Both the position numbers and the translations under genes were made by a program. From assembly GCF_008065115.1 (NCBI RefSeq), contig NZ_CP042913.1:195211-259210 (forward strand): a DNA stretch of 64,000 nt, read 5' to 3'. Shown here piece by piece: positions 51,072-64,000 of this stretch. Position 1 is the stretch's first letter, and each line of letters begins with the position of its first letter. A model generated the notes under the pieces. The model was not told the DNA's origin, did not search any database, and saw only the letters and a program-made list of their open reading frames with translations. Source of the DNA: Bythopirellula goksoeyrii. GTDB lineage: Bacteria > Planctomycetota > Planctomycetia > Pirellulales > Lacipirellulaceae.

Positions 51072-52502
51072 ATGAATTTCAGCAAGTCTCTTCGTCCTCT
51101 AGTACTCGCCAACACCATCCACTACGTGGTAATCGCCACAATCTCATTTACTGCGTCGTTTGCCCAGGCACAAGACCCTACGAGTCCCACTGCAGAGCCT
51201 ACATCGGCCCTGGGTGCTGCCGAAGATGCCAGCATGCAACCAACCGTCGAGGCTTTAATCGGCTCGGCTGTCTCGCTTTCAAACCAGAAATATCCCGAAA
51301 TCGAGAAAGCAATTCAGCGATTCAAGAACGGTGACGTCGAAGGGGCGCTTGAATTCCTCAAACAAGCTAAGGAAAAATACCCCAAGCTACCACCGACCTA
51401 TATTACTCTCGCCAAATTGCATGTCATGGCAAAGAACAACCAGGGTGCCTACAATCTGCTCGAACTCCAGGTCGCCGAAGATCCCACCGATCCCGAGGCC
51501 TATTTATTGCTGGCTGATCAATCCTTTGCTGGCAATCGCACCGCGGAAGCCGAGGCCTTGTTTGAAAAAGCAGAACCGCTTGTTGAGAAGTTCGAAGGGA
51601 GTGCCAAGAGAAAACGCGATATGGAAATCCGCGTTCTAGCCGGTAAGGCGGCGGTGCAAGAACGCCGTGGAAAGTGGGAAGCTGCCCTGGAGTTACTCAA
51701 TCAATGGGTAGAGACCGATCCTGACAATGCTATGTCCCATGCTCGACTTGGTGTTACCCTCTTCCGCTTGGATAAGTCCAAGGAAGCCTACGACGAATTC
51801 ACCAAAGCACGAAAACTAAACCCCGAACTCCCTCACCCCTACGCTTCCCTTGGACAGCTTTTCACCCAAACCGGAGATATGGATAACGCTCGCAAGGCAT
51901 TCGAACGGGCTTACAAAGAAGACAGTCAGGATCCCACAACTGTCCGTACTTATGCCGAATGGTTGTTGCAACAAGGCGAACTAGAAAAGGCCCAGGAAGT
52001 CTCCACAGCACTATTGAAACTAACTCCCTCGGCACCTGTGGCGGTCCTCTTGGATGGTGTCGTCGCCCTGATGCTCAATCAAGACGACCGAGCCGAACAG
52101 GCTTTCAACAAAGTGTTGAGTCTTGATCCAGGCAACGCCCGCGCCAATGACCTTATGGCGTTGCTATTGATCGAAAGCGCCGACGCGGCCGATCAAGAAC
52201 GAGCCCTTCGGTTTGCGGAGCAGAACGCCAAGCTGTTTCCTCAGAATTCCCAGGCCAACATCACCAAGGCCTACGTGCTCTACAAGCTGGGCCGCATGAA
52301 CGAAGCCCAAGAGCCGCTCCAGATTGGCGCCCGCGGCCAACTTCAAACCGACTCCGCCTACTTGATCGCCCGCATCATGGCTGACCAAGGCCAAAAAGAC
52401 AAAGCCCGCCAGGCGCTCGAGCAAGTTCTTCAACAGAAACAGGGGCTCTTCGTATTCCGCGAACAAGCCGAGGAGCTACTCAACGAACTAAAATCCGAAT
52501 AG
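51072..52502 (+). CDS. Exported TPR-repeat protein
   Basis: A 476-residue secreted protein (signal peptide ending near FAQAQDP at residue 32). After an acidic linker, about ten tetratricopeptide repeats fill residues 70-470 (KNGDVEGALEFLKQAKEKYP, SHARLGVTLFRLDKSKEAYD, PYASLGQLFTQTGDMDNARK and others). It should act as a periplasmic scaffold. The C-terminus ends in a helix QAEELLNELKSE. It is the only gene of its transcription unit and converges with the small membrane protein gene. Confidence 0.85.
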   Translation: MNFSKSLRPLVLANTIHYVVIATISFTASFAQAQDPTSPTAEPTSALGAAEDASMQPTVEALIGSAVSLSNQKYPEIEKAIQRFKNGDVEGALEFLKQAKEKYPKLPPTYITLAKLHVMAKNNQGAYNLLELQVAEDPTDPEAYLLLADQSFAGNRTAEAEALFEKAEPLVEKFEGSAKRKRDMEIRVLAGKAAVQERRGKWEAALELLNQWVETDPDNAMSHARLGVTLFRLDKSKEAYDEFTKARKLNPELPHPYASLGQLFTQTGDMDNARKAFERAYKEDSQDPTTVRTYAEWLLQQGELEKAQEVSTALLKLTPSAPVAVLLDGVVALMLNQDDRAEQAFNKVLSLDPGNARANDLMALLLIESADAADQERALRFAEQNAKLFPQNSQANITKAYVLYKLGRMNEAQEPLQIGARGQLQTDSAYLIARIMADQGQKDKARQALEQVLQQKQGLFVFREQAEELLNELKSE

Positions 52503-52560
52503 CTGCCGCTTGCGGCTTGGCGCTTTCCACGTTTGGCAGCAACACGAATTGGAGCATACC

Positions 52561-52950
52561 TCACATCGCTTCCACGTCTCCTACCTTGAAAAAGGCAACA
52601 AGAAACAGAACGCCTAGAATGAGGTCAATTCCAGCGAACAATCCGAAAACCCCCGGAACGCGCGACAACATTAGCAGCGTAAATGTCGAGGCTGCAAAGA
52701 AAAACTTTTCAGCCACCCCCGCCAGCATCATCGGCCGCAGCCGCCGCGGATCGCTGGCGATGATCAAGAACCCAATCTGCCAAGCCAACGCTACTCCCAC
52801 GAACCCGTAGAAATTCTCCGGATGGGTCATCGGTGGCGGATAGTCACGTCCGATGCGCGATTCAAGAAAGTACTGGGGTACGAGTAGAATTAGCCCATAG
52901 ACCCCGGCCCAAAAGAACACTCGTTTTGCAAAAGCTTCACCAGGAGCCAT
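52561..52950 (-). CDS. Small integral membrane protein, four helices
   Basis: A 129-residue protein with four hydrophobic segments (VFFWAGVYGLILLVPQYFL, YGFVGVALAWQIGFLIIAS, FFFAASTFTLLMLSRVPGVF, DLILGVLFLVAFFKV). The segment lengths and the short loops suggest a compact bundle, somewhat like DoxX or DUF4345 proteins. No catalytic motif is seen. Convergent with the TPR gene. Confidence 0.6.
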   Translation of the reverse strand: MAPGEAFAKRVFFWAGVYGLILLVPQYFLESRIGRDYPPPMTHPENFYGFVGVALAWQIGFLIIASDPRRLRPMMLAGVAEKFFFAASTFTLLMLSRVPGVFGLFAGIDLILGVLFLVAFFKVGDVEAM

Positions 52951-53442
52951 CTAATTTCTATCCTACTCTCAAGCGGGCCATGCAATAGCAGACTCTTAAA
53001 TGACCCGTGAAGTTGATCCCAAAAACTAGCCAGCTTGATAAGGTGTTGATGCCTCGGTTGACCTTGTCCCTAAGTTTTATCCACTTGGAACGCCAGGAAA
53101 CAAGAGGTTTTTGGCTCGCAAACGCAAATTTTCCTCAGAAGAGTTTTTCTTGTCGTTAAAGTTTGCCAGACCAGATTTTTTTCTGCAACGGTATTGACCG
53201 GTGCTCCTCTTTGTATTTCGTATTAATCTGACTGTATGGTCGATAGTAACGGTAAGCAATTTTTCTGCTGAACGAATTGTAAGACGTGTAGCTCTTCGAG
53301 GGGTTTGAGCGGATTATGTTGGGAAGGAACAATTCGGGCAATTGACAGATCTGCTCAAACAAGAGCTCTCTCGTGACAATATGTGCCGAATAAGTAATTT
53401 CAAAAATACATACTAGACTTCCGATCCATTAGGCGAAAAACC
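52951..53442. other. Intergenic region upstream of the outer-membrane barrel gene
   Basis: 492 bases, AT-richer than the flanking genes, with only short unconvincing minus-strand ORFs. It probably carries the promoter of the barrel gene and a long 5' leader. No strong hairpin or repeat was seen. Confidence 0.35.
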
Positions 53443-54822
53443 ATGAAAATGTCGACTATTTCTCTCGCAGTCTTCGTCGGTTTACTTCTACCGATACAGG
53501 CAAACGCAGAAGAAAACAGCCAAGAGGTTGAAGAGACTCTAATGTCCCCCGAAAGCTGTGAGCTGAGTAACATGGACTTCTATGAAGCCAAGAGCATTGC
53601 GACAAAGGAGTTGGTTGTCGAGCAAGGCGAGTTAGTCGCTTCTGCGAGTGCGGTGACGCCTTGTCGGTGTGATTCAGAAGACTCCTGTTGTGGTTGCAAT
53701 AATCCATCCGGATGTAGCTGTAGTACTTCCGTTTGTGATGAAGACGAAATTGGACTTCTTCAGGGCATGTTGGACCCATGCTCACCATTCGTGATCGGTG
53801 GCTGGACCACATTTGGTTACTACAACAAGAACACCAGGCAGTCCTTTGATAAAGGAGATCTCCTCTCCTACAACGATGTTCCTAACCGTCTGAATATCCC
53901 CCAGTCCTGGCTCTACTTAGGCAAGGAAGCTGACGGATCTCAAGGCCTTGATTTTGGTTTTCGCGTCGATGCTGTCTATGGAACTGATGCCCAAAGCCTG
54001 CAAGCGACTGGGAACCCCGGTGCTCAAATTGTAAACTCAGGCACGTTTGATGCCTCTTGGGACCACGGCGTCTATGGTTGGGCTATGCCGCAGCTTTATG
54101 GCGAGGTCGCCTATGAAGATTGGTCAGTCATTGCCGGCTATTTCCTTTCGCCGATCGGATATGAGTCCTCCAGGGCGATAGACAACTTCTTTTTTAGCCA
54201 CTCGCTTACCATGTTTAATAGTGAACCCTTTACCAACACAGGCGTACTAGCAAAGAACACTGCCTATGAGGGAGTGACATTCTATGCTGGTTGGACCCTG
54301 GGCTGGGATACGGCATTTGACCAAAACCTTGGTGGCAACAGCGGAATCGGCGGCTTCGTCATCGAACCAAATGATCTCGTCACATTTACTTACCTAGCAT
54401 CTGCGGGAGATTTTGGCTTTCGAGGTGACGACGGCTACAACCATAGTATTGTGCTCGAACTCTTATTAACGGACAAACTGGAGTATGCCTTGCAAAGCGA
54501 TTACGTTCGTACCAACAATAGCTTTGCAACTCCAGGGTTCTCAGTTGAAGAGTTTGGCGTTGTCCAATACGTATACTACCAATTAAACGACAAGTGGTGG
54601 GCTGGAGGCCGCGCTGAATGGTGGAAGAGTAACTCAAGCACGCCAGATCAGCAGTCCTACAATGACATTACACTCGGGCTCAATTACGAACCGCGTTCCA
54701 ATATCGTTTTCCGCCCAGAAATTCGATATGACTGGACACCCGCTGAGGACAACTTCGCAGCAGCAGTTGCCCCCAACTACAATCAGTGGGTTACTGCTAT
54801 CGACTGTGTGATTACTTATTAG
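53443..54822 (+). CDS. BBP2-like outer-membrane beta-barrel protein with Cys-rich insert
   Basis: A 459-residue outer-membrane protein. Signal peptide MKMSTISLAVFVGLLLPIQA is followed by a polar linker with eight cysteines in 25 residues (positions 74-98, PCRCDSEDSCCGCNNPSG and CSCSTSVC), then the barrel from about residue 116 (VIGGWTTFGYYNKNTRQSF) with alternating aromatic strands (FGFRVDAVYGTDAQ, WSVIAGYFLSPIGYESS, YALQSDYVRTNN) to the C-terminal VTAIDCVITY. This matches BBP2/putative porin families of planctomycetes. The Cys-rich part may cross-link or bind metal; not seen in typical porins. A strong terminator follows. Confidence 0.85.
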   Translation: MKMSTISLAVFVGLLLPIQANAEENSQEVEETLMSPESCELSNMDFYEAKSIATKELVVEQGELVASASAVTPCRCDSEDSCCGCNNPSGCSCSTSVCDEDEIGLLQGMLDPCSPFVIGGWTTFGYYNKNTRQSFDKGDLLSYNDVPNRLNIPQSWLYLGKEADGSQGLDFGFRVDAVYGTDAQSLQATGNPGAQIVNSGTFDASWDHGVYGWAMPQLYGEVAYEDWSVIAGYFLSPIGYESSRAIDNFFFSHSLTMFNSEPFTNTGVLAKNTAYEGVTFYAGWTLGWDTAFDQNLGGNSGIGGFVIEPNDLVTFTYLASAGDFGFRGDDGYNHSIVLELLLTDKLEYALQSDYVRTNNSFATPGFSVEEFGVVQYVYYQLNDKWWAGGRAEWWKSNSSTPDQQSYNDITLGLNYEPRSNIVFRPEIRYDWTPAEDNFAAAVAPNYNQWVTAIDCVITY

Positions 54823-54842
54823 CCAACTTCTAAAGATGTCAT

Positions 54843-54884
54843 ACTCCGCACGAGTATCCGTAAGCAACTCGTGCGGAGTTTTTC
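54843..54884 (+). terminator. Rho-independent terminator
   Basis: A perfect 13-bp hairpin ACTCCGCACGAGT / ACTCGTGCGGAGT with an 11-base loop followed by TTTTC, 20 bases after the barrel gene stop. The T-run overlaps the stem end. Confidence 0.85.
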
Positions 54885-54971
54885 AGATAGTAAATGCTCG
54901 GGAAGCAATCATTGTGCATCACTTGTCGCCTTCAGATTTCATGCTGAGGTGAAAACTGCACCTCAGTCGCC

Positions 54972-55490
54972 TTAAGAGGCGTTCCCGGCTTCTCCCGACG
55001 AGCTTTCAGGTAGAGTCTGAGTCTCAACTTGTCCAGAATCTTGGCTTGATTCAACGGTAATCGGATCCCAAGAACCTGACATTCCTTGATAGCTCCAAGA
55101 GTTTCCATCGACAAAGTCTACTCGCACAAAAAGTTCGAGTTCTCTACCCAACTGATCTCGATAAACGTGAGATATCAATTCGTAACGGCTTTCGCCGCTG
55201 GAAATAGGCAAGATGCTATTATCCGGTTCAGATATCGGAGACCATGCGGATTGGCTAGCATGATATCGCCAAGTTTCTCCGGTGAAGCGGTCGAGGCGAA
55301 GAAGTATCTCTAACTGCCGTCCATTCTGCAGAAACACGTGGTCTGTAAACTGGTATCGCATGCTATCGAGATTCTCGCTCGATGAGGTTTCAGCAAGCAA
55401 ATTCTGGAAATCTTGGGCACCAACATAAAGTGCCCAACTCCCAGAAGCCAGCATCATCATCAACATCGTCGTCCAAAAAGTTCTTTTCAT
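54972..55490 (-). CDS. Exported protein with two copies of an unknown domain
   Basis: A 172-residue secreted protein (leader MKRTFWTTMLMMMLASGSWA). It contains an obvious internal duplication: MRYQFTDHVFLQNGRQLEIL ... RFTGETWRYHASQSAWSPI and SRYELISHVYRDQLGRELEL ... DFVDGNSWSYQGMSGSWDPI. Each copy is a beta hairpin set with a W-x-Y and S-x-W-x-P-I end. No known family is recognised. It starts 94 bases after the C45 gene on the same strand, so co-transcription with the kamA-pls-C45 operon is possible but not shown. Confidence 0.6.
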   Translation of the reverse strand: MKRTFWTTMLMMMLASGSWALYVGAQDFQNLLAETSSSENLDSMRYQFTDHVFLQNGRQLEILLRLDRFTGETWRYHASQSAWSPISEPDNSILPISSGESRYELISHVYRDQLGRELELFVRVDFVDGNSWSYQGMSGSWDPITVESSQDSGQVETQTLPESSSGEAGNAS

Positions 55491-55584
55491 TGCATAGTTC
55501 CCTTCATAGGTTTGTCACAGGTATTTAGTGAAATCATAAACCAGAAAAACCGTGAGATCTTCACTGCTGAAGACTCCTGAATCA

Positions 55585-56568
55585 TTAATTCATTTCATAG
55601 GACAACCATCCCTTTTTGCTTTCACGGCGCAGCCAGACCATCGCTTGCATATGATCGACATCGACAATCATTCCGCCAATGGTACGGTTACTGTGAATAC
55701 TCCTTCGTTTACCTTGGGACGAATCTCCCAAAATCTTTCTCGCCTTCTCTATCGACATCGTTTCAGAGACATTCTCTGATGCACGACTTAATCTGCCAAA
55801 TGTACCAAAGCGATTGCTATTCCCTTCCAGAACAGCCATCTCAGGCATCAAATAGTGATTGGTATGCACGAAAGGAATAGCGGGGGTTGTTATGATGTGA
55901 CTTTTTGCAGAACACTCGACACTCCAAACATTGCCCAACGAATTAACGATTACGTGGTGAAATCCAGATGCACGTCGTAGCCGCCCTAGCATTTCCAAAT
56001 CTCGCTCGGGCGCACTCGTATCGGAAAGCCATCTTGCAACCACACATTTGGGTATGCCCATCTGATGATCGTAATGGTTCAAACTATTGATTGCTTGCAA
56101 AATACCGTGGGAATTAATTGAAATTGCATTTCCACCCAAAGTATTCACATAGAATAGCTCGAGCGTCGTGGCGTCCCCAATGGTTCTTTTAAGAACGCAA
56201 AGTTCATCCTCCGCATCGGCTGACCAATCTTCATTATGCGCTACAAGGAATCCGTTGTTTGTGACGAATGTCGTACATTTTTCCTGGACGTCTTGCGTGA
56301 GCTCATCGAGGAGATTCAGAGTCCAGAGTTCCTCGAAGGAGGTCCCCGCCCCATGAGCGTAGCCTTTGAGCTCAGCAACTAACTCGGGAAAAACTTTTTC
56401 TGTGGGCGTTAGATATTCACGCGACCGACGGACATATTCACTCCATACCTTGCCTTTTCTTTCTTCGTTCAAGGACTGAAGTAGGGACTCACCGAAGAGT
56501 TTGCCCTTTTGAAGACCAAGCTCGTAGGTATTGTCTGCCTCGATTTCAAAGTAATTCTTATGAGTCAT
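55585..56568 (-). CDS. C45-family Ntn hydrolase/acyltransferase (IAT/Tan-like)
   Basis: A 327-residue protein from the ATG at 56568; AGGA lies 10 bases upstream, and the start overlaps the end of the pls-like gene by 11 bases. Residues 10-95 are the N-terminal part of C45 proteins (YELGLQKGKLFGESLLQSLN, PELVAELKGYAHGAG). Cys98 in QEKCTTFVTNNGFLVAHNED is the conserved self-processing nucleophile and is followed by the NxDW element. C45 enzymes are made as a single chain that cleaves itself before this Cys and then breaks or makes amide bonds: fungal IAT swaps acyl groups on 6-APA; insect Tan splits beta-alanyl-amines. No signal peptide, so it is probably cytoplasmic. It likely processes the amide bond made by the NRPS. 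Confidence 0.82.
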   Translation of the reverse strand: MTHKNYFEIEADNTYELGLQKGKLFGESLLQSLNEERKGKVWSEYVRRSREYLTPTEKVFPELVAELKGYAHGAGTSFEELWTLNLLDELTQDVQEKCTTFVTNNGFLVAHNEDWSADAEDELCVLKRTIGDATTLELFYVNTLGGNAISINSHGILQAINSLNHYDHQMGIPKCVVARWLSDTSAPERDLEMLGRLRRASGFHHVIVNSLGNVWSVECSAKSHIITTPAIPFVHTNHYLMPEMAVLEGNSNRFGTFGRLSRASENVSETMSIEKARKILGDSSQGKRRSIHSNRTIGGMIVDVDHMQAMVWLRRESKKGWLSYEMN

Positions 56569-59500
56569 GCGAGGAGTTTCCTGGATCACGCAATTGATTG
56601 ATGGGAATACCAATCCATCGTGTCTTTTCAGGCAATGAGTCGCCCTTCATCAACAATGACAGCGGGCCAATTGAGGAGCCTTGTTGCATTTCTGAGTCGT
56701 ACAATACTATTGACATATTTCCTACGGAACATTCATCACCTACCACCAACGACGAGGATTTCATAATGCGGTCTTCGAAGAGGTGATTCTGGATTACTGC
56801 CCCGGAATTCAGCGCAGCGTAGTTGCCAATACTGACCAAATCAAATTCCGAAAAGAGCTCCGTTTCGATGAAGGCCCCTTTTCCTATTTTACATCCCAGT
56901 AATCGCAAATACGAGCTAAAAAATGGAGTGCCGAACAGTGGCCACGCGAGCGACATAGTGATCATCTCGAAAACGGCATTCGTCAACTCGTTCAGCCAGA
57001 TATAGACGCACCATAGTGGCTTGATGACGGGCTTAATTGTTCCCATGCAGATTTGCTTAATGGCCACTACTAGGAGCAAGGAAAAGACTACGAGAAAGGA
57101 AACGAGTACGGGGACAAGCGCAAGAATTGCCCCAGGTGAGAACCTAGACACGCCGGCGACAACGCAGACACTAAACAATGCCAATGCGAGCATACCGATG
57201 TAATAAGGGAGCAACACTCTCAGCCCGTCGATGAAAATCCGCGTTACGTAGAGCCTCAAGGTAGGCCGAAATATTGTCGCATCGTCAAATCCTTGCACCT
57301 TCTCCCGATGCGGCAGTCTGAATGGTGGAGAGCCAAGCCACTCCGTGTTGTCCGTAAACTCGGAAGCGTTCGAAGTGGGGGGAACCGAAAGGACACCCAC
57401 AAGACAATTGCTACCAAGTTCAATCCCATCAGGAAGCAGAGCCCCGTTGCCTAGAAAAGTCCGAGAGCCAATGCGATTGAAACTGACCTGAAAATGCCCT
57501 CGATAGAGACGCCTGCCACCGATCATCGAGCCGTCAGCCAGAAAACTCTCTTGCCCGATTGTTACTAAGTCAGGAGTAACATGAGTGACTGTAGATATCT
57601 CTGCTCGAGAGCCGATATTGGCACCAAGCATACGGAGCCAACTGGGGAGAAAAATTGTCGAGTAAACAGGGTAGACGATTGATGAGGCGTACCTCAGAAA
57701 TAGATCAGCTGACCATCTCTTCAGATAAACCCAACTCTCGAGGGAATGGACGCCGGTATCCGATTTTGGCAGCAGTGTACGCTTAACAGCCGCTACAAAA
57801 AGACAGAACCAGACCAGGCAAAGTGGAAGACCCATGAATAACGAAGTGATGCTCCCTGCAGCACCTCCATACCGAAAGCCAGCAATCAGCAACAAAGCGA
57901 TCGGCATGATAATACCCAACAGCAGAATTTCACCGAAGATCTCGCTGCTGATGAAGTGCAACATGCAATACAACCCTGTTCGCCTAGAACTAACTTGCTT
58001 CCCAATGTCAATGTCAGGAACCTTGACCGTAGCGGGCTGTGCCGGAGATCCAGCAAATGCTTCACCACTGCCAATGGTCGAGTTGTCTGGCAACAACGAC
58101 ATGTCATCGAGTAGGGCGTCGTCTTCCATCCGTGTATTAATACCCAAAGCACATTGGGTGCCTACAAAACATCTGCTTCCAATCTCAATAGAACCAATTT
58201 TCAATAAGCCATCTTCGACTCGATAACCCAAAAAATGAGTTTCCGATCCAATACACGTGTCGTCTCCAACGGAAAGCAGATCAAATATCACACAATTGTT
58301 CGAATCAAAAAGGCTATTCTTCCCGACCTGTGCACCCATCAATCGGTAGTAGAAACTCATGAGGGGGGAGCCAATGTAAATATCTGTCCACGCCAAAAAC
58401 TGAGTTCGAGTAACCAACCACCAGCGGAAGTAATAGAAACCCCAGACAGGGTATTCGCCAGGCTTATATCTCCCAATGACCACCCATTTCACAGCAATCG
58501 AGAGTAGAATCCCAACTAGAGGGGCAAAGAAGACGGCTGCTGACATGGACCAAATGTAGGCATTCAGCGATACCTTCGCTGTGAGCAGCGCAAATGTAAG
58601 AAGAATGCCTATCAACAGGGGAGTCGCGGCTAAACTGTAGATCACAGCCACTGAAACCGCTTGAAGACAGTAGCAAATGTATCGAGTTAAGCGGGGTACA
58701 CTCTGGAAGACTTCTCGACTTGTCACGGGCGCAGGTGAGGCTACCGAACTCTCAAGCGATGCTTCCGATTCATTGACCACCGAACTGGATACATGCTCAG
58801 CAAGCTGAACTACCGTTGGATTCATGTAGACATCGCGAATCGCAACGTCATAACCGTACTCTTTCCGCAGCAGCAATGCCATCTCCACTGCTAGTAAGGA
58901 GTAGCCACCAAGGTCTAGAAAGAAATCGTCCTCGATTGAGATAGAGGACACGCTAAACAACTTCTCCCATACGCTTACGATCCTAGATTCCAACTCATTT
59001 CGAGGTTCTACAACAGATCGTTTGACCGGCACCAGCGGAAGCTTCGGGGCCGGGAGACGATTACGGTCAACTTTGCCACTATCCAACGTGGGCAGGACAT
59101 CCAAATTGTCGAGAAAACTTGGAATCATGTAATGAGGCACGTGGTCTTTGAGCCAATTCAAAATCTCGTCTCGATCGATAGATTCCACCGAGTTGGCTGG
59201 AACAACGTAAGCAGCGAGTTCCTTTTGACCACCTTTATCAACGATATTTACTACCGCCTGATCGATGGCTGAGTGTCCACGTAGTACCGACTCTATCTCA
59301 GCAAGCTCGATACGGTATCCACGCACTTTCACTTGTCGGTCGATCCGACCGTGAAACACTAAATCACCGGTAGCAGTTCTTTCGACCAGATCTCCCGTAC
59401 GGTAGAGTTTCGAGCTATGGCCGTTGCTACGCAGGGGATTGTCGACAAACTGCCTTATGGTTTGGTCTGGTTGTCCTAGGTATCCCCGTGCAAGGCCAAC

Positions 59501-60553
59501 ACCGCCGATGTAGAGTTCGCCTCTGTTTCCTGGAGGCACTGGTTGCATATTGCGGTCTAGAATCAAGGCTTCATACCCGTTCAACGGACGCCCAATAGTC
59601 ACCTGTTCATTAGGCACACATTCGGCCACTGTCGCATTGACTGTTGTTTCAGTCGGTCCGTAGACATTGAGCATTCGACGGTTGTTTGTGGCCCATTTGT
59701 TCACCAACGCAGCCGGGCACGGCTCGCCACTTACGATAATCAGGCGCAGACTCGGAATGTCGTCATGAATCATTCCCAAACAGGTCGGGACCGTCGAGAG
59801 GACGCTGATACCCAAATCGCAGAGCAACTTGGCTGCTTCGTTGCCAACATGTGCGATCTCTGTGGTTCCTACCACCAAACACGCGCCATTGGAAAAGGCC
59901 ATCCACATTTCTTCGACGGAACCGTCAAATCCAAGCGCGAAGCCATGGTAGACGCGGTCCTCAGAAGTGAGTCGCAATTCCTCGTTGAAAGCCTGCACAA
60001 AGCGGACAACATTCCGATGCTCGGTCATCACGCCCTTGGGGCGCCCTGTACTGCCAGAAGTGTAAAGAACGTAGCAGAGGTCTTCTGCTGTCACGCCCGT
60101 CTCATCAATTGACAATCGATCAGTGGATTGAGCTGAAATGTCAGGACTGCTATCGTCACAAATGATGCATAGTCCACCGAAATAGGTTTTTGCTCTGGAT
60201 GCGTGGGCTTGTTCGGTCAGAAGTGCTGTCACTTCGGCTTCTTCGAGAATGTGCCCAATGCGCATGTCGGGGAAGGCCGGGTCAATTGGAACATAAGCGG
60301 CACCTGCCTTGAGCACCGCCAGAATGGCAAGAATCGAGTTCTCAGAACGGCGCATGAAGAGACCAACGAAATTCCCAGGTCCGATACCGCAAGACTTGAG
60401 ATGCCGGGCAAGCTGATTCGCGCGTCGGTCAAGTTCTTCGTACGACCACTCAACTTCACCGCAAACCAACGCCGTTTGACAGGGGTTCTGCTCTACGTGA
60501 GATTCAAACAGCTCATGAACACACAGTGTGTCCGATATCGTCAGGTTGGCCAT
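56558..60553 (-). CDS. Pls-like NRPS (A-PCP-membrane/beta-helix), probable poly-lysine or poly-beta-lysine synthetase
   Basis: A 1331-residue single-module NRPS. Adenylation domain about 12-505, with YTSGSTGRPKG (164-174), YGPTETT and SGKVDRNRLP (Lys494). Carrier protein about 515-590, with LGGYSLL (phosphopantetheine Ser552). The remainder alternates hydrophobic helices (near 628-690, 872-922, 1110-1165) with three left-handed beta-helix hexapeptide domains (about 736-840, 975-1075, 1215-1315), exactly the C-terminal layout of Streptomyces epsilon-poly-L-lysine synthetase Pls, where the tandem domains act iteratively. GRYKPGEYPVWGFYYFRWW is the family's signature. No condensation or thioesterase domain. 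The pocket residues include Asp210 and Glu214, compatible with a cationic amino acid. Stops 11 bases into the C45 gene and starts 15 bases after kamA. Confidence 0.88.
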   Translation of the reverse strand: MANLTISDTLCVHELFESHVEQNPCQTALVCGEVEWSYEELDRRANQLARHLKSCGIGPGNFVGLFMRRSENSILAILAVLKAGAAYVPIDPAFPDMRIGHILEEAEVTALLTEQAHASRAKTYFGGLCIICDDSSPDISAQSTDRLSIDETGVTAEDLCYVLYTSGSTGRPKGVMTEHRNVVRFVQAFNEELRLTSEDRVYHGFALGFDGSVEEMWMAFSNGACLVVGTTEIAHVGNEAAKLLCDLGISVLSTVPTCLGMIHDDIPSLRLIIVSGEPCPAALVNKWATNNRRMLNVYGPTETTVNATVAECVPNEQVTIGRPLNGYEALILDRNMQPVPPGNRGELYIGGVGLARGYLGQPDQTIRQFVDNPLRSNGHSSKLYRTGDLVERTATGDLVFHGRIDRQVKVRGYRIELAEIESVLRGHSAIDQAVVNIVDKGGQKELAAYVVPANSVESIDRDEILNWLKDHVPHYMIPSFLDNLDVLPTLDSGKVDRNRLPAPKLPLVPVKRSVVEPRNELESRIVSVWEKLFSVSSISIEDDFFLDLGGYSLLAVEMALLLRKEYGYDVAIRDVYMNPTVVQLAEHVSSSVVNESEASLESSVASPAPVTSREVFQSVPRLTRYICYCLQAVSVAVIYSLAATPLLIGILLTFALLTAKVSLNAYIWSMSAAVFFAPLVGILLSIAVKWVVIGRYKPGEYPVWGFYYFRWWLVTRTQFLAWTDIYIGSPLMSFYYRLMGAQVGKNSLFDSNNCVIFDLLSVGDDTCIGSETHFLGYRVEDGLLKIGSIEIGSRCFVGTQCALGINTRMEDDALLDDMSLLPDNSTIGSGEAFAGSPAQPATVKVPDIDIGKQVSSRRTGLYCMLHFISSEIFGEILLLGIIMPIALLLIAGFRYGGAAGSITSLFMGLPLCLVWFCLFVAAVKRTLLPKSDTGVHSLESWVYLKRWSADLFLRYASSIVYPVYSTIFLPSWLRMLGANIGSRAEISTVTHVTPDLVTIGQESFLADGSMIGGRRLYRGHFQVSFNRIGSRTFLGNGALLPDGIELGSNCLVGVLSVPPTSNASEFTDNTEWLGSPPFRLPHREKVQGFDDATIFRPTLRLYVTRIFIDGLRVLLPYYIGMLALALFSVCVVAGVSRFSPGAILALVPVLVSFLVVFSLLLVVAIKQICMGTIKPVIKPLWCVYIWLNELTNAVFEMITMSLAWPLFGTPFFSSYLRLLGCKIGKGAFIETELFSEFDLVSIGNYAALNSGAVIQNHLFEDRIMKSSSLVVGDECSVGNMSIVLYDSEMQQGSSIGPLSLLMKGDSLPEKTRWIGIPINQLRDPGNSSHDS

Positions 60554-60568
60554 TTATGTCAGACTCGA

Positions 60569-62038
60569 TTAGGCAAGATCCACGGTAGAAGAGGAGGTCT
60601 TCGATTCGCGAATGGCTTCGTCGAGCATTCTTTGTCCCTCGACTGGATCACTCCATCTTAACCTCGATTGCTCGCTCAAGCTATGAATCGGATCAAAGTA
60701 GAAGAACAACTTTCCCGCTTTAACCGAAGGAGCCGTATAAACGGCTATTCCAGTATCTTGATTGTAGTATTCATAGGAATGAATCGAGCGTTTCCCCCCC
60801 CCGCCGGGTAGATCACAGACAAACGTAGGTGTATTAAACCCTGCAGTCGAACCTCGGACATGCTTTTCTATGTTGAGTGCCGTCGACAAGCTGGTGCGCA
60901 GGTCCTCTATTCCGCTCACCATGTCGCAAACATAAACATAGTAGGGATGAACGTTGATATAGCTTAAACGACGCACCAATTGAATCATTGTATCGACTTC
61001 ATCGTTTACTCCTCGCTGCATGACTGCTTGGTTACGCACAGTAATGCCTCGCTCGTGCAACACGCCTAATGCTTGCTGAGAAATCCAGGTCATCTCCTTG
61101 GGGTGATTGAAATGGGTATGAATCGCCATGTCTTTATGGTTCTTACGAGCGTGATTACCAACGGTAGTGAGCGCCTGCAGCCACTTTTTATCCGAAAGTA
61201 TTTTCTGTGGCATGACCGCCAATCCTTTGGTCGCAACTCGGATCCGGCGAACGTTCGGAATCGCAAGTAATGTTAAGCCGATTTCTTCTAGTTGGTCAGC
61301 ACGCAGATTGTAGGCATCGCCCCCACTAATAACGATGTCTTCAAGCTCCGGCCGCGATTCGATATACTCAAAAGCTTTTTTCCATCGCTCGTAGTCGACG
61401 CGAAGCGAAACCTTAGATACTTCCTCCGTATCCATGCCGACAGAGTAACTCCGTGTGCAAAAGCGGCAATACACTGGACAGGTATTAATGGGAAGGAAGA
61501 GCGCTTTGTCGAAGTAGCGATGAGTAAGGCCTGGGGTCGGCGAATCGCCTTGCTCGTTGAGAGAATCGAGATGCGTATTGGGATGGTCTTCGAGAAGTCT
61601 ATTGCCTATTGGAACAAATTGAATGCGCAAAGGGCAATTATATGGATCTTCCCAATCGATGAGCGAGATGATGTAAGGAGAAATGCGTAGCGCCATGGGG
61701 GCCTTACTAAGTCCCTGCTCCAAATCGGTGAAGAATTCTGCGGGCGCAAAATCTCCGATCAATTTTTTTAGTCGCCCAGCACTGGTTTTTGAATTTCGCG
61801 ACTGCCACTTGTAGTCTAGGAATGTCTCACGGTCGATATCCGCATATGCCGGAAGCTTGCGCCAGAATTCCTCCTCAGGGAACTGGCCATGAGTTAAAGA
61901 CTCGAAGGAAACCGGCGGACGAACATGCTGTAAACTCTGGTATTCTCGACGAGGCGTTTGCTCTAATGTCGATTGACCTTTGCCAGGCAGGGATATTTTC
62001 GATATCTCGCGCCGTTCGGTCGTCGCAGTATCAATCAT
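60569..62038 (-). CDS. kamA: Lysine 2,3-aminomutase (KamA, radical SAM, PLP)
   Basis: A 489-residue radical SAM enzyme turning L-lysine into beta-lysine. CxxxCxxC is Cys187/191/194 (NTCPVYCRFCTRSYS). The PLP lysine is Lys416 in DLPGGGGK. Two aspartates, Asp372 (CDMVSGIED) and Asp409 (CDLPGGGGK), lie 37 residues apart, as do Asp293 and Asp330 that bind the lysine side chain in the Clostridium enzyme (recalled spacing). Arg/Glu aminomutases and EpmB do not keep both. An N-terminal extension of about 50 residues and a C-terminal tail (SLSEQSRLRWSDP) are extra. It is the first gene of the operon, 15 bases ahead of the pls-like gene. The promoter is in the 970-base region upstream. Not linked to elongation factor P. 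Confidence 0.88.
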   Translation of the reverse strand: MIDTATTERREISKISLPGKGQSTLEQTPRREYQSLQHVRPPVSFESLTHGQFPEEEFWRKLPAYADIDRETFLDYKWQSRNSKTSAGRLKKLIGDFAPAEFFTDLEQGLSKAPMALRISPYIISLIDWEDPYNCPLRIQFVPIGNRLLEDHPNTHLDSLNEQGDSPTPGLTHRYFDKALFLPINTCPVYCRFCTRSYSVGMDTEEVSKVSLRVDYERWKKAFEYIESRPELEDIVISGGDAYNLRADQLEEIGLTLLAIPNVRRIRVATKGLAVMPQKILSDKKWLQALTTVGNHARKNHKDMAIHTHFNHPKEMTWISQQALGVLHERGITVRNQAVMQRGVNDEVDTMIQLVRRLSYINVHPYYVYVCDMVSGIEDLRTSLSTALNIEKHVRGSTAGFNTPTFVCDLPGGGGKRSIHSYEYYNQDTGIAVYTAPSVKAGKLFFYFDPIHSLSEQSRLRWSDPVEGQRMLDEAIRESKTSSSTVDLA

Positions 62039-63006
62039 CAGATGTTTCTACCAAGCTGCTAGATTTCAATTGTCTTTATTGTGTCTCTCACTGGAGAATC
62101 ACTAAAACGTTCTCAGACTCAATGAATTTTGAATGAACCTCCCGTGGTCTTTCGAGTACCAACCAGTGAGTTCGATTTGCTGCCATGCGATAAGATCTAA
62201 ATCCATAGGATGATCTCGACATACAGCCGGTCTCTGGTTTTAAATTCACATAAGACGGAGAAGAGTCAGATTCTTAGTGGAGTTTGAATGAACCGCAGGA
62301 CAACGCATCACATCAGGGTTGTCGGTAATTAGTGGGCATATGGGTTATATGTGACATTAAGCTAGCTTAAGTGCTTTGCGAGTTTTGTCAATATTGGGCT
62401 ATATAAGAAGAAAGGGAAGGCATCAGCTATGATCCAATTCCAACTTTATGAAGGTTGGGATTGTCCCAAGAAATGAACTACATAAAGTCTTTTAGGGAAA
62501 TGAGTTAGGGCTCTGCACTCAGATTCGACAAGCGTCCTTGAAGAAACCAATAGCCTATCCAAACACCTAGCAAAAGTTACTTCCAACGCTCCCATTCCAG
62601 CGCCATCACAGTAGGTAAAGGGATAGGATCTAGGCTCCCTTCAGCTCAGATTGCTCGGAATGGATAGGAGAGAATGGTTTCTCTTGGTGCCACTAGAATT
62701 AACTGACCTAACCCCTAGGGCTAAATGACATGCACTGCCGGTATTGACCACAAAAAGCGCCCAGCCTTTCTCGCACTGCATAAAGAATGCACTTAGAATA
62801 ACTAGCGATTCTTGGCTCTCAATAGCAAATCTCGGTTATAGCCACAGGAGTTGCAGGGGCTCCCGACTGCTAGCTCACCTTCACCCTAGATAAAAGGTGT
62901 GTGAACTTGACGGCGTACGATGGTCCCCCTAGTCTTCGCCCCGGTTTCTAGGCCCGTGCGCGCCTCTGCGCACAGGCTTCGCCAGCCTTTTCCGGGGACA
63001 ATTCCT
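62039..63006. promoter_or_regulatory. Long gene-free region upstream of the kamA operon
   Basis: 968 bases with no convincing gene on either strand; a minus-strand ORF at 62886-63203 is low-complexity-like and antisense to the lipoprotein gene. The region separates the divergent kamA operon and the lipoprotein gene and should hold both promoters. It is AT-rich around 62040-62460 and contains a perfect 14-base palindrome (listed separately). An sRNA or a small undetected gene is possible but no evidence for one was seen. Confidence 0.4.
62357..62370. repeat. Perfect palindrome, possible operator
   Basis: TTAAGCTAGCTTAA, a 14-base perfect palindrome about 320 bases upstream of kamA. It could bind a dimeric regulator. 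It is AT-rich and may be chance. Confidence 0.3.
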
Positions 63007-64000
63007 TTGCAGGAAAAACCAGCCATCCAACCCGCAACGATACGGCAGCCGCCCGGGCAGTGTCGCTCATCGTTCGTATTGCTGTTGCTGTTTTGCCTGG
63101 TAACTGGTTGTGCTACCTCAACCAACAAATGGGTAGCTCTGCGTTCCACTCCTCGCAATCCTCTCACCGAGTCCCTTGGACTACTAACCAAACAAGGCCC
63201 CAAACCGACCGAGCGAACTCTCCAACTGCTCCGTCGCTATAACTTGCATGAAGATCTGGAAGGTGATCGCCGAGAGTTGCTCGTCAAACTAGGCGAGATT
63301 GAAAAACGGAGTCCTAATCGCGAGAACGTCTACGCCCAAGCAGAATTGGCCTACGTCGTCGGCAAACGAGCCGAAAGAGGCTCGCATTCAGAAAAAGCTT
63401 TAGAGTACTATGGTGCTGCCGTGTTGCATTCCTATAGTTATCTCTTCGACGAGAAGTATGCGACCGTATCCAACCCCTACGATCCTGAATTCCGCCGCGC
63501 ATGTGATCTCTACAATGCGGCTTTAGAAGGGACCCTCCGGATTGTCCAAGAACAAAACTCCTTGCAACCCGGCACCACGCAACATATCAAAACAGCGAAT
63601 CACGACTGCCGGCTCGAAGTGCGCCTGCAGAGTAACGATTGGCACGCCGACGACATCGATCATTTCGAGTTTGTCACTGATTACGAAGTGCATGGATTAC
63701 GTAATCACTATCACAACTTCGGCTTGGGCGTTCCACTAATCGCGGTGCGCCGCAAGCACGAGGGAGAAGATCCCCGTGAAGAATATTATCCCGAGGATCT
63801 CTCCTTTCCCGTTACTGCGTTTCTGCGTGTTAACCTGGCAGCAGCCAACGAGAGTACGGTCCAAACTGCCGTCTTGGAACTCTTTGATCCACTCAACCAA
63901 CCGATGGTCCAGGTAGCAAGTCACAATGTCCCGCTGGAGACGGATCTAAGCACTCCTCTGGCACATACGCTCAGCCAGCCTGCATTGGACGACACACGCC
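63007..64000 (+). CDS. Predicted lipoprotein, C-terminus outside the window
   Basis: An open frame from TTG 63007 (GGGGA 8 bases upstream) to the window end, at least 331 residues. A hydrophobic leader (SSFVLLLLFCLVTGCATSTN) has lipobox VTGC. The mature part is helical at first (LTESLGLLTKQGPKPTERTL, LQLLRRYNLHEDLEGDRREL), with AEKALEYYGAAVLHSYSYLF-like repeat helices, then beta-rich (FRVNLAAANESTVQTAVLEL). It resembles planctomycete lipoproteins that continue into an alpha/beta hydrolase, but that part is not in the window, so no function is assigned. The start codon is uncertain. Confidence 0.7.
   Translation, partial: MQEKPAIQPATIRQPPGQCRSSFVLLLLFCLVTGCATSTNKWVALRSTPRNPLTESLGLLTKQGPKPTERTLQLLRRYNLHEDLEGDRRELLVKLGEIEKRSPNRENVYAQAELAYVVGKRAERGSHSEKALEYYGAAVLHSYSYLFDEKYATVSNPYDPEFRRACDLYNAALEGTLRIVQEQNSLQPGTTQHIKTANHDCRLEVRLQSNDWHADDIDHFEFVTDYEVHGLRNHYHNFGLGVPLIAVRRKHEGEDPREEYYPEDLSFPVTAFLRVNLAAANESTVQTAVLELFDPLNQPMVQVASHNVPLETDLSTPLAHTLSQPALDDTR

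Follow-up and report, generated by a model that had tools for sequence, protein, structure and literature searches.

A candidate epsilon-poly-beta-lysine operon with an overlapping C45 gene in a variable block of the planctomycete Bythopirellula goksoeyrii

Epsilon-poly-beta-lysine, an antibiotic polymer, was recently reported from an actinomycete. Its described system, in Streptoalloteichus hindustanus, consists of a Pls homologue and an adjoining lysine 2,3-aminomutase gene (Yamanaka 2022, as cited in PMC10522769), and the substrate pocket of the synthetase is given the ten-residue code DGESISVVNK (PMC10522769). Here we describe a related gene set, kamA-pls-C45, in a 64,000-nucleotide stretch of Bythopirellula goksoeyrii DNA (contig NZ_CP042913.1, positions 195,211 to 259,210; the window, to which coordinates below refer). 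The host genome is a single contig of 6.47 Mb. The window locus resembles that of S. hindustanus in having a Pls with an adjoining aminomutase gene and the code DGESISVVNK; it differs in its planctomycete host and in the presence of a C45 gene, a small gene and a porin gene in the same block, the S. hindustanus locus being known by description only (PMC10522769). PosA of Acinetobacter baumannii and other members of the Pls/PosA family share with the window synthetase the order of adenylation (A), carrier (T) and membrane domains, the TIGR02353 match, and Asp at position 1 and Glu at position 3 of the code, whereas PosA differs at other code positions, has no aminomutase and is encoded by a single-gene operon (PMC10522769). 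PldII, reported as the enzyme chiefly responsible for polylysine degradation in Streptomyces albulus, is translationally coupled to pls there (PMC9223678).

The pairing of an aminomutase with Pls was already published in 2022, and the core idea is not new. What is new here is the planctomycete host, the C45 gene that overlaps pls, the small gene and the BBP2 porin. A preliminary description of the window had known of no such three-gene unit described in planctomycetes; that claim of novelty can extend no further than the planctomycete host and the C45 gene. Open-licence PMC searches on planctomycetes with nonribosomal peptide synthetases and aminomutases, poly-lysine synthetase, and adenylation domains returned only papers judged unrelated by title and abstract.

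All three genes lie on the minus strand as open frames: kamA (60569-62038, 489 aa), the Pls-like/PosA-family synthetase gene (56558-60553, 1331 aa) and the C45 Ntn hydrolase/acyltransferase gene (55585-56568, 327 aa, with Cys98). As first described, 15 bases separate kamA from pls, and the C45 start lies within the end of pls, producing an 11-base overlap. We consider it probable that these genes form an operon for epsilon-poly- (or oligo-) L-beta-lysine, in which KamA would make beta-lysine, Pls would polymerise it and C45 would cut the product. Among the components of this proposal, beta-lysine is very likely the monomer, and a polymer is the likely product. KamA would convert L-lysine to L-beta-lysine with S-adenosylmethionine, pyridoxal phosphate (PLP) and an iron-sulphur cluster. 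The A domain of Pls would then activate beta-lysine and load it onto carrier residue Ser552, and the membrane domain would link the units through epsilon-isopeptide bonds without a condensation domain. C45 would cleave itself before Cys98 and subsequently hydrolyse beta-lysyl isopeptide bonds in the cell, an activity that would shield the producer, determine how long the chains are or return monomer for reuse, and would make C45 the counterpart of Streptomyces PldII from another enzyme family. A small exported protein and a BBP2 porin, encoded next to the operon, probably deal with the polycation once it is in the periplasm and with its crossing of the outer membrane. A planctomycete producer, if real, would mean that the pathway crosses phyla and has a new source.

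The membrane domain of Pls (56600-58666, minus strand) matches TIGR02353 over its full length (574.4 bits against a cut-off of 423.1, positions 2-695 of 695) and is predicted to contain six membrane helices in three pairs, from three groups of hydropathy peaks at residues ~629-695, 867-925 and 1129-1177. Pfam matches comprise AMP-binding, AMP-binding_C, PP-binding and one Hexapep, with no condensation or thioesterase domain among them, and the carrier domain (PF00550; 58790-58984, minus strand) contains Ser552 in the motif GGYSLL. The A, carrier and membrane domains of the layout first described are therefore present, but of the three beta-helices that were included in it only one Hexapep stretch passes in Pfam. 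Three such helices are predicted from family membership, and the published three beta-helix model concerns PosA (PMC10522769).

Ten pocket positions were mapped by motif. Nine of them (D210, G211, E214, S253, I273, S275, V297, V305 and N306; 59636-59926, minus strand), with K494 as the tenth, give DGESISVVNK, the S. hindustanus code. The column mapping is trusted because the same columns reproduce the published code DSECYGGVTK, which was read in all seven of the other planctomycete Pls whose code is readable (L035, L036, L037, L039, L040, L042 and L043); in Sphingomonas they yield the PosA-like DMEHNGTVTK. DSECYGGVTK itself is assigned in the PosA paper to a Bdellovibrionales protein whose substrate is given as unknown (PMC10522769). 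The window pocket holds the Asp and Glu typical of diamino-acid activators and matches the beta-lysine code and, as far as sequence can show, does not point to a neutral amino acid, the choice that had been named as evidence against the pathway.

Alternatively, Pls might make a polymer of alpha-lysine or another monomer while kamA serves a separate use of beta-lysine, for example as an osmolyte or in catabolism. In favour of this, close kamA relatives do occur in other settings: L138 has one next to an ablB-like gene, and L150 has one within a cluster of CoA-transferase and thiolase genes. The pocket argues otherwise, as its code equals that for beta-lysine and is unlike the DAESIGTVVK of a Streptomyces Pls, which has Ala at position 2. 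Since kamA also lies only 15 bases 5′ of pls, and adjoins pls in three other genomes, we regard this alternative as highly improbable.

The preliminary description had left open whether beta-lysine is polymerised or conjugated. Pocket code, KamA residues and recurrence support the polymer; conjugation is without support. A conjugate would carry beta-lysine on a streptothricin-like scaffold or a cell-surface molecule, and streptothricins do bear beta-lysine oligomers on a scaffold (PMC9606270). Such a product is nonetheless very improbable here, given that the five-gene block has no scaffold-making gene and that Pls-family enzymes with a reported product make homopolymers (PMC10522769).

We compared pocket codes with gene neighbourhoods in 22 assembled Pls, 20 of which were readable (L038, with its A domain cut off, and L176, in the wrong frame, were dropped; L034 and L041, in which the A domain was off or cut, never entered the set). 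DGES(I/V)SVVNK was found in 4 of the 20, each with kamA adjoining, and the remaining 16 had no kamA within the flanks examined. A Fisher test of code against KamA linkage (4/4 vs. 0/16) gives p 2e-4 and is not clean, as 3 of the 4 were recovered with a KamA bait. The shared code, and the single Pls clade into which the four fall (support 100/100), are not products of this selection. Other monomer genes were seen next to pls as well. A diaminobutyrate transaminase gene adjoins 2 of 5 Pls with a DF-type code, and these two operons indicate that monomer genes can track codes; for the other three no such transaminase is listed, one record being unannotated. The dapA gene beside Citricoccus pls fits lysine supply.

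KamA aligns with the solved lysine 2,3-aminomutase 2a5h (residues 61-420, 8.7e-66), and D372 and D409 land on both lysine-reading Asp residues of that structure, which we take to be D293 and D330. Alignments to 2a5h and to 10 relatives show that CxxxCxxC (C187/C191/C194), PGGGGK and the PLP lysine K416 are kept, and the protein exceeds the TIGR00238 cut-off (230 bits against 199). With the aminomutase residues in place, the earlier assignment of KamA as a predicted lysine 2,3-aminomutase is upheld. The window protein has the cluster cysteines, the PLP lysine and the two lysine-reading Asp in common with AblA/KamA lysine 2,3-aminomutases; it differs from AblA in falling under the AblA equivalog cut-off, in lacking most of LAM_C and in having its own branch. 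Tree and scores place it on a side branch separate from AblA. Within a 20-row tree it groups with L054 and L050 (support 95/97), in a wider clade (100/98) that takes in L138 (with the ablB-like neighbour), L045 from a rhizobial plasmid and L047 from a Klebsiella plasmid.

That the window KamA is the only one in the genome was considered and rejected. A second KamA-family gene, at C1:5848081-5849046, is EpmB (431.7 bits, cut-off 369.3), and EF-P-like and EpmA-like frames near it were recognised by eye, which makes EF-P a probable second target for beta-lysine in this genome.

Recurrence was assessed with a KamA protein scan of 84,980 species genomes, which yielded 125 relatives, 80 loci being kept. 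Five loci fall at 47-72% KamA identity (L054, L050, L053, L051 and L052). Two of them, both in planctomycete metagenome-assembled genomes (MAGs), carry kamA-pls-C45 in the same order: L054, from the host's family, at 72/58/53% identity, and L050 at 69/58/54%, on a contig that ends inside C45. The neighbour search proposed in the preliminary description thus found the three families together in two further genomes, and their adjacency is not unique to the host. The small gene and the porin are also present in L054. In Citricoccus (L053), kamA diverges from dapA-pls; kamA and pls are each 47% identical to those of the window, and the code is DGESVSVVNK. No pls was found in the deltaproteobacterial loci L051 (a 5-kb contig) and L052, and 11 other kamA loci that were checked had no Pls.

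Genes of the close kamA type (at least 54% identity) occur in 6 of 392 phylum genomes, and the five other than the host had no Pls in the stretches examined, one of which was only 3.3 kb. At 1e-80, kamA was detected in 3 of 146 genomes of an order sample, namely the host, G519 (the source of the L054 contig) and G475, in which kamA is at 50% and no Pls was found; four other genus members in the same sample had no kamA at this threshold. C45 at 1e-20 was restricted to 2 of 392 phylum genomes (the host and, at 31%, G284). The Pls domain was found at 1e-98 or better in 11 of 294 phylum genomes, with 2 of the 11 over the cut-off. No KamA or C45 match was present near the ten other planctomycete Pls in the stretches examined, which include two contigs of <9 kb.

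The product of the third gene scores above the cut-offs of both family models, NF040521 (143 bits against 85) and PF03417 (65 against 23), and Cys98 is present, in agreement with its original description as a C45 Ntn hydrolase. Cys98 is invariant in the three C45 proteins compared, and C45 is kept in L050 and L054. A single-sequence PDB search with C45 gave no match. With a three-sequence C45 profile, the best solved relative was fungal isopenicillin N acyltransferase 2x1d (5.4e-10), and in the profile alignment Cys98 falls on the 2x1d nucleophile and the HTNH motif is aligned too; the residue roles of 2x1d, including that of the nucleophile Cys, are presumed. The nucleophile and HTNH motif of isopenicillin N acyltransferase (2x1c/2x1d) thus have counterparts in the window protein, whereas the fungal enzyme has Gly before the nucleophile and three C45 relatives have Lys, Asp-Lys or His, and the similarity is weak. 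Hydropathy revealed no hydrophobic N-terminus or signal peptide on C45. An AlphaFold model was poor (pLDDT 42, from 3 sequences). The genome has a second C45 gene, far from the locus.

We think it fairly probable that C45 acts as a hydrolase, because PldII is coupled to pls, peptidase genes occur beside pls, and C45 and aminomutase genes are found in shared clusters. The pldII gene adjoins pls and is coupled to it by translation (PMC9223678), as the window C45 gene adjoins pls with an 11-base overlap, and cutting of the polymer is the activity proposed for C45. Of 8 annotated plasmid loci, 3 have a peptidase gene (S8, S41, M1) 3′ of pls; in the remaining 5 no peptidase gene follows, and two further loci carry no annotation. 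In G475 a C45 gene and an aminomutase gene sit in one cluster, and on a Rhizobium plasmid two such genes lie within 18 kb of each other. If C45 does cut beta-lysyl isopeptides, it would represent a new means by which a producer tolerates the polycation it makes, and could serve to trim such polymers. Literature searches found no report of a C45-type beta-isopeptidase for such polymers and gave no paper on the insect Tan relatives of C45.

C45 could instead be an acyl- or aminoacyl-transferase that caps or moves the beta-lysine chain, comparable to the side-chain exchange of isopenicillin N acyltransferase. This would be consistent with an acyltransferase, 2x1d, being its best solved relative and with the name of NF040521, 'autoproteolytic acyltransferase/hydrolase'. 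We consider a transferase unlikely, as hydrolase genes recur beside pls elsewhere and the block includes no acyl donor gene.

Several observations weigh against the operon proposal as a whole or against one of its parts. What the sequence itself shows is which families the genes belong to, the pocket code, the order of the genes, their recurrence and the limits of the block; from these we infer every reaction, the polymer, and the roles of C45 and of the last two genes. The S. hindustanus Pls entered the comparison through its published code (PMC10522769), not its full sequence, and the linkage of code to kamA was selected by the bait. KamA scores 264 bits against the AblA equivalog cut-off of 525 and is below every equivalog cut-off. 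Its LAM_C match spans only 27 of 127 positions, at the start of the model, and reaches 26.6 bits on protein against a cut-off of 26.7, although it passes with 28.1 bits when DNA is searched. The claim that every KamA motif is present was accordingly too strong, with most of LAM_C missing and the AblA cut-off unmet; the catalytic residues and both lysine-reading aspartates are nevertheless in place. The kamA of L050 carries one in-frame stop. Citricoccus kamA joins the rhizobial kamA (96/94), so the kamA genes of Pls clusters are not one clade and, unlike pls, appear to have no single shared history.

For C45 in particular, none was found in the 21 kb examined around Citricoccus kamA and pls, which implies that the pathway can do without C45; a 30% identical C45 is encoded elsewhere in that genome. 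The C45 proteins of G475 (27% over 114 residues) and of the Rhizobium plasmid (28.5%) are distant, and the aminomutase of that plasmid is only 30% identical. The C45 family also contains acyltransferases, and the hydrolase role is putative. PldII, a metallo-aminopeptidase, is located outside the membrane (PMC9223678), whereas the window C45 is of the cysteine Ntn type and has no signal peptide.

The three-gene extent given in the preliminary description was too small, as it overlooked a small gene and a convergent porin gene. The small gene (54972-55490, minus strand; 172 aa, with a hydrophobic N-terminus) lies 94 bases 3′ of C45. It is faced by the BBP2 (OmpL-like) porin gene (53443-54822, plus strand; PF07642, 209 bits), which is convergent with the operon. 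All five genes are contained in a variable block, 52954-62905, the flanks of which match the nearest genus member. Alignment to that genome (G507, contig 6) breaks at 52953 and restarts at 62906, and two flanking proteins are 91 and 87% identical to their counterparts there. At the same site G507 has ~72 kb of other DNA (contig 6, 134960-206954) compared with 10 kb here, and no simple empty site was found in this nearest relative. GC content is 48.1% in the block and 51.5% in the whole window. As judged from these sequence data, the block is self-contained and its presence sporadic. An Rfam scan of 52000-64000 gave nothing at the gathering score, and promoter and terminator scans at the locus gave no more than chance.

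The small protein has no Pfam match and is probably exported. A 45% identical copy occupies the same place in L054, and among 14 genus genomes the gene was found in the host only; the AlphaFold model was poor (pLDDT 50, from 2 sequences). L054 likewise encodes the porin at the corresponding position (61% identical, residues 106-459). In 11 of 13 other genus genomes the proteins that match the porin best are at 46-53%, and its own-genome paralogue is at 40-50%. It is possible, if doubtful, that the five genes constitute a transferable Gram-negative polycation module, with synthesis at the inner membrane, a cytosolic C45 beta-isopeptidase, a periplasmic small protein and a dedicated BBP2 exit. 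In that event a Skermanella plasmid set, ectB-pls-small protein-S41 peptidase-porin, would provide another instance of the design, made of other parts. With a monomer gene, pls, a hydrolase gene, a small-protein gene and a porin gene recurring as a set, the way in which Gram-negative cells export such polymers becomes testable.

The Skermanella set itself (L179, 6334-16010, on a Skermanella rosea plasmid) reproduces the design of the window block from other families. Further loci place kamA in different settings. In G475, of the same family as the host, L150 (6496-14605) contains a distant C45, a class III aminotransferase, two CoA-transferase subunits flanking kamA, a thiolase and an aldehyde dehydrogenase, and is probably a cluster for lysine or beta-lysine breakdown. 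In L138 (2712-5110, G237) kamA is followed by an ablB-like acetyltransferase gene that scores over the cut-off, an arrangement also recognised by eye in L139 and L140, and all three probably make N-acetyl-beta-lysine. The deltaproteobacterial MAG locus L052 (3120-6760) has kamA at 51% identity, then a D-Ala-D-Ala-ligase-like ATP-grasp gene and a peptidase S58 gene; because the S58 family takes in beta-aminopeptidases, the locus may encode a pathway for a beta-lysine dipeptide. On the Klebsiella oxytoca plasmid CP026284 (L047, 8512-13888), kamA at 46% identity lies between a gene for a 472-aa protein with no Pfam match and a methionyl-tRNA-synthetase-like gene, followed by an MFS transporter, perhaps a pathway that puts a tRNA-synthetase relative to work on a beta-amino acid. 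On a Rhizobium sp. BT03 plasmid (L045, 3197-14474), kamA at 48% identity lies near aminotransferase, type I polyketide synthase and adenylation-domain genes.

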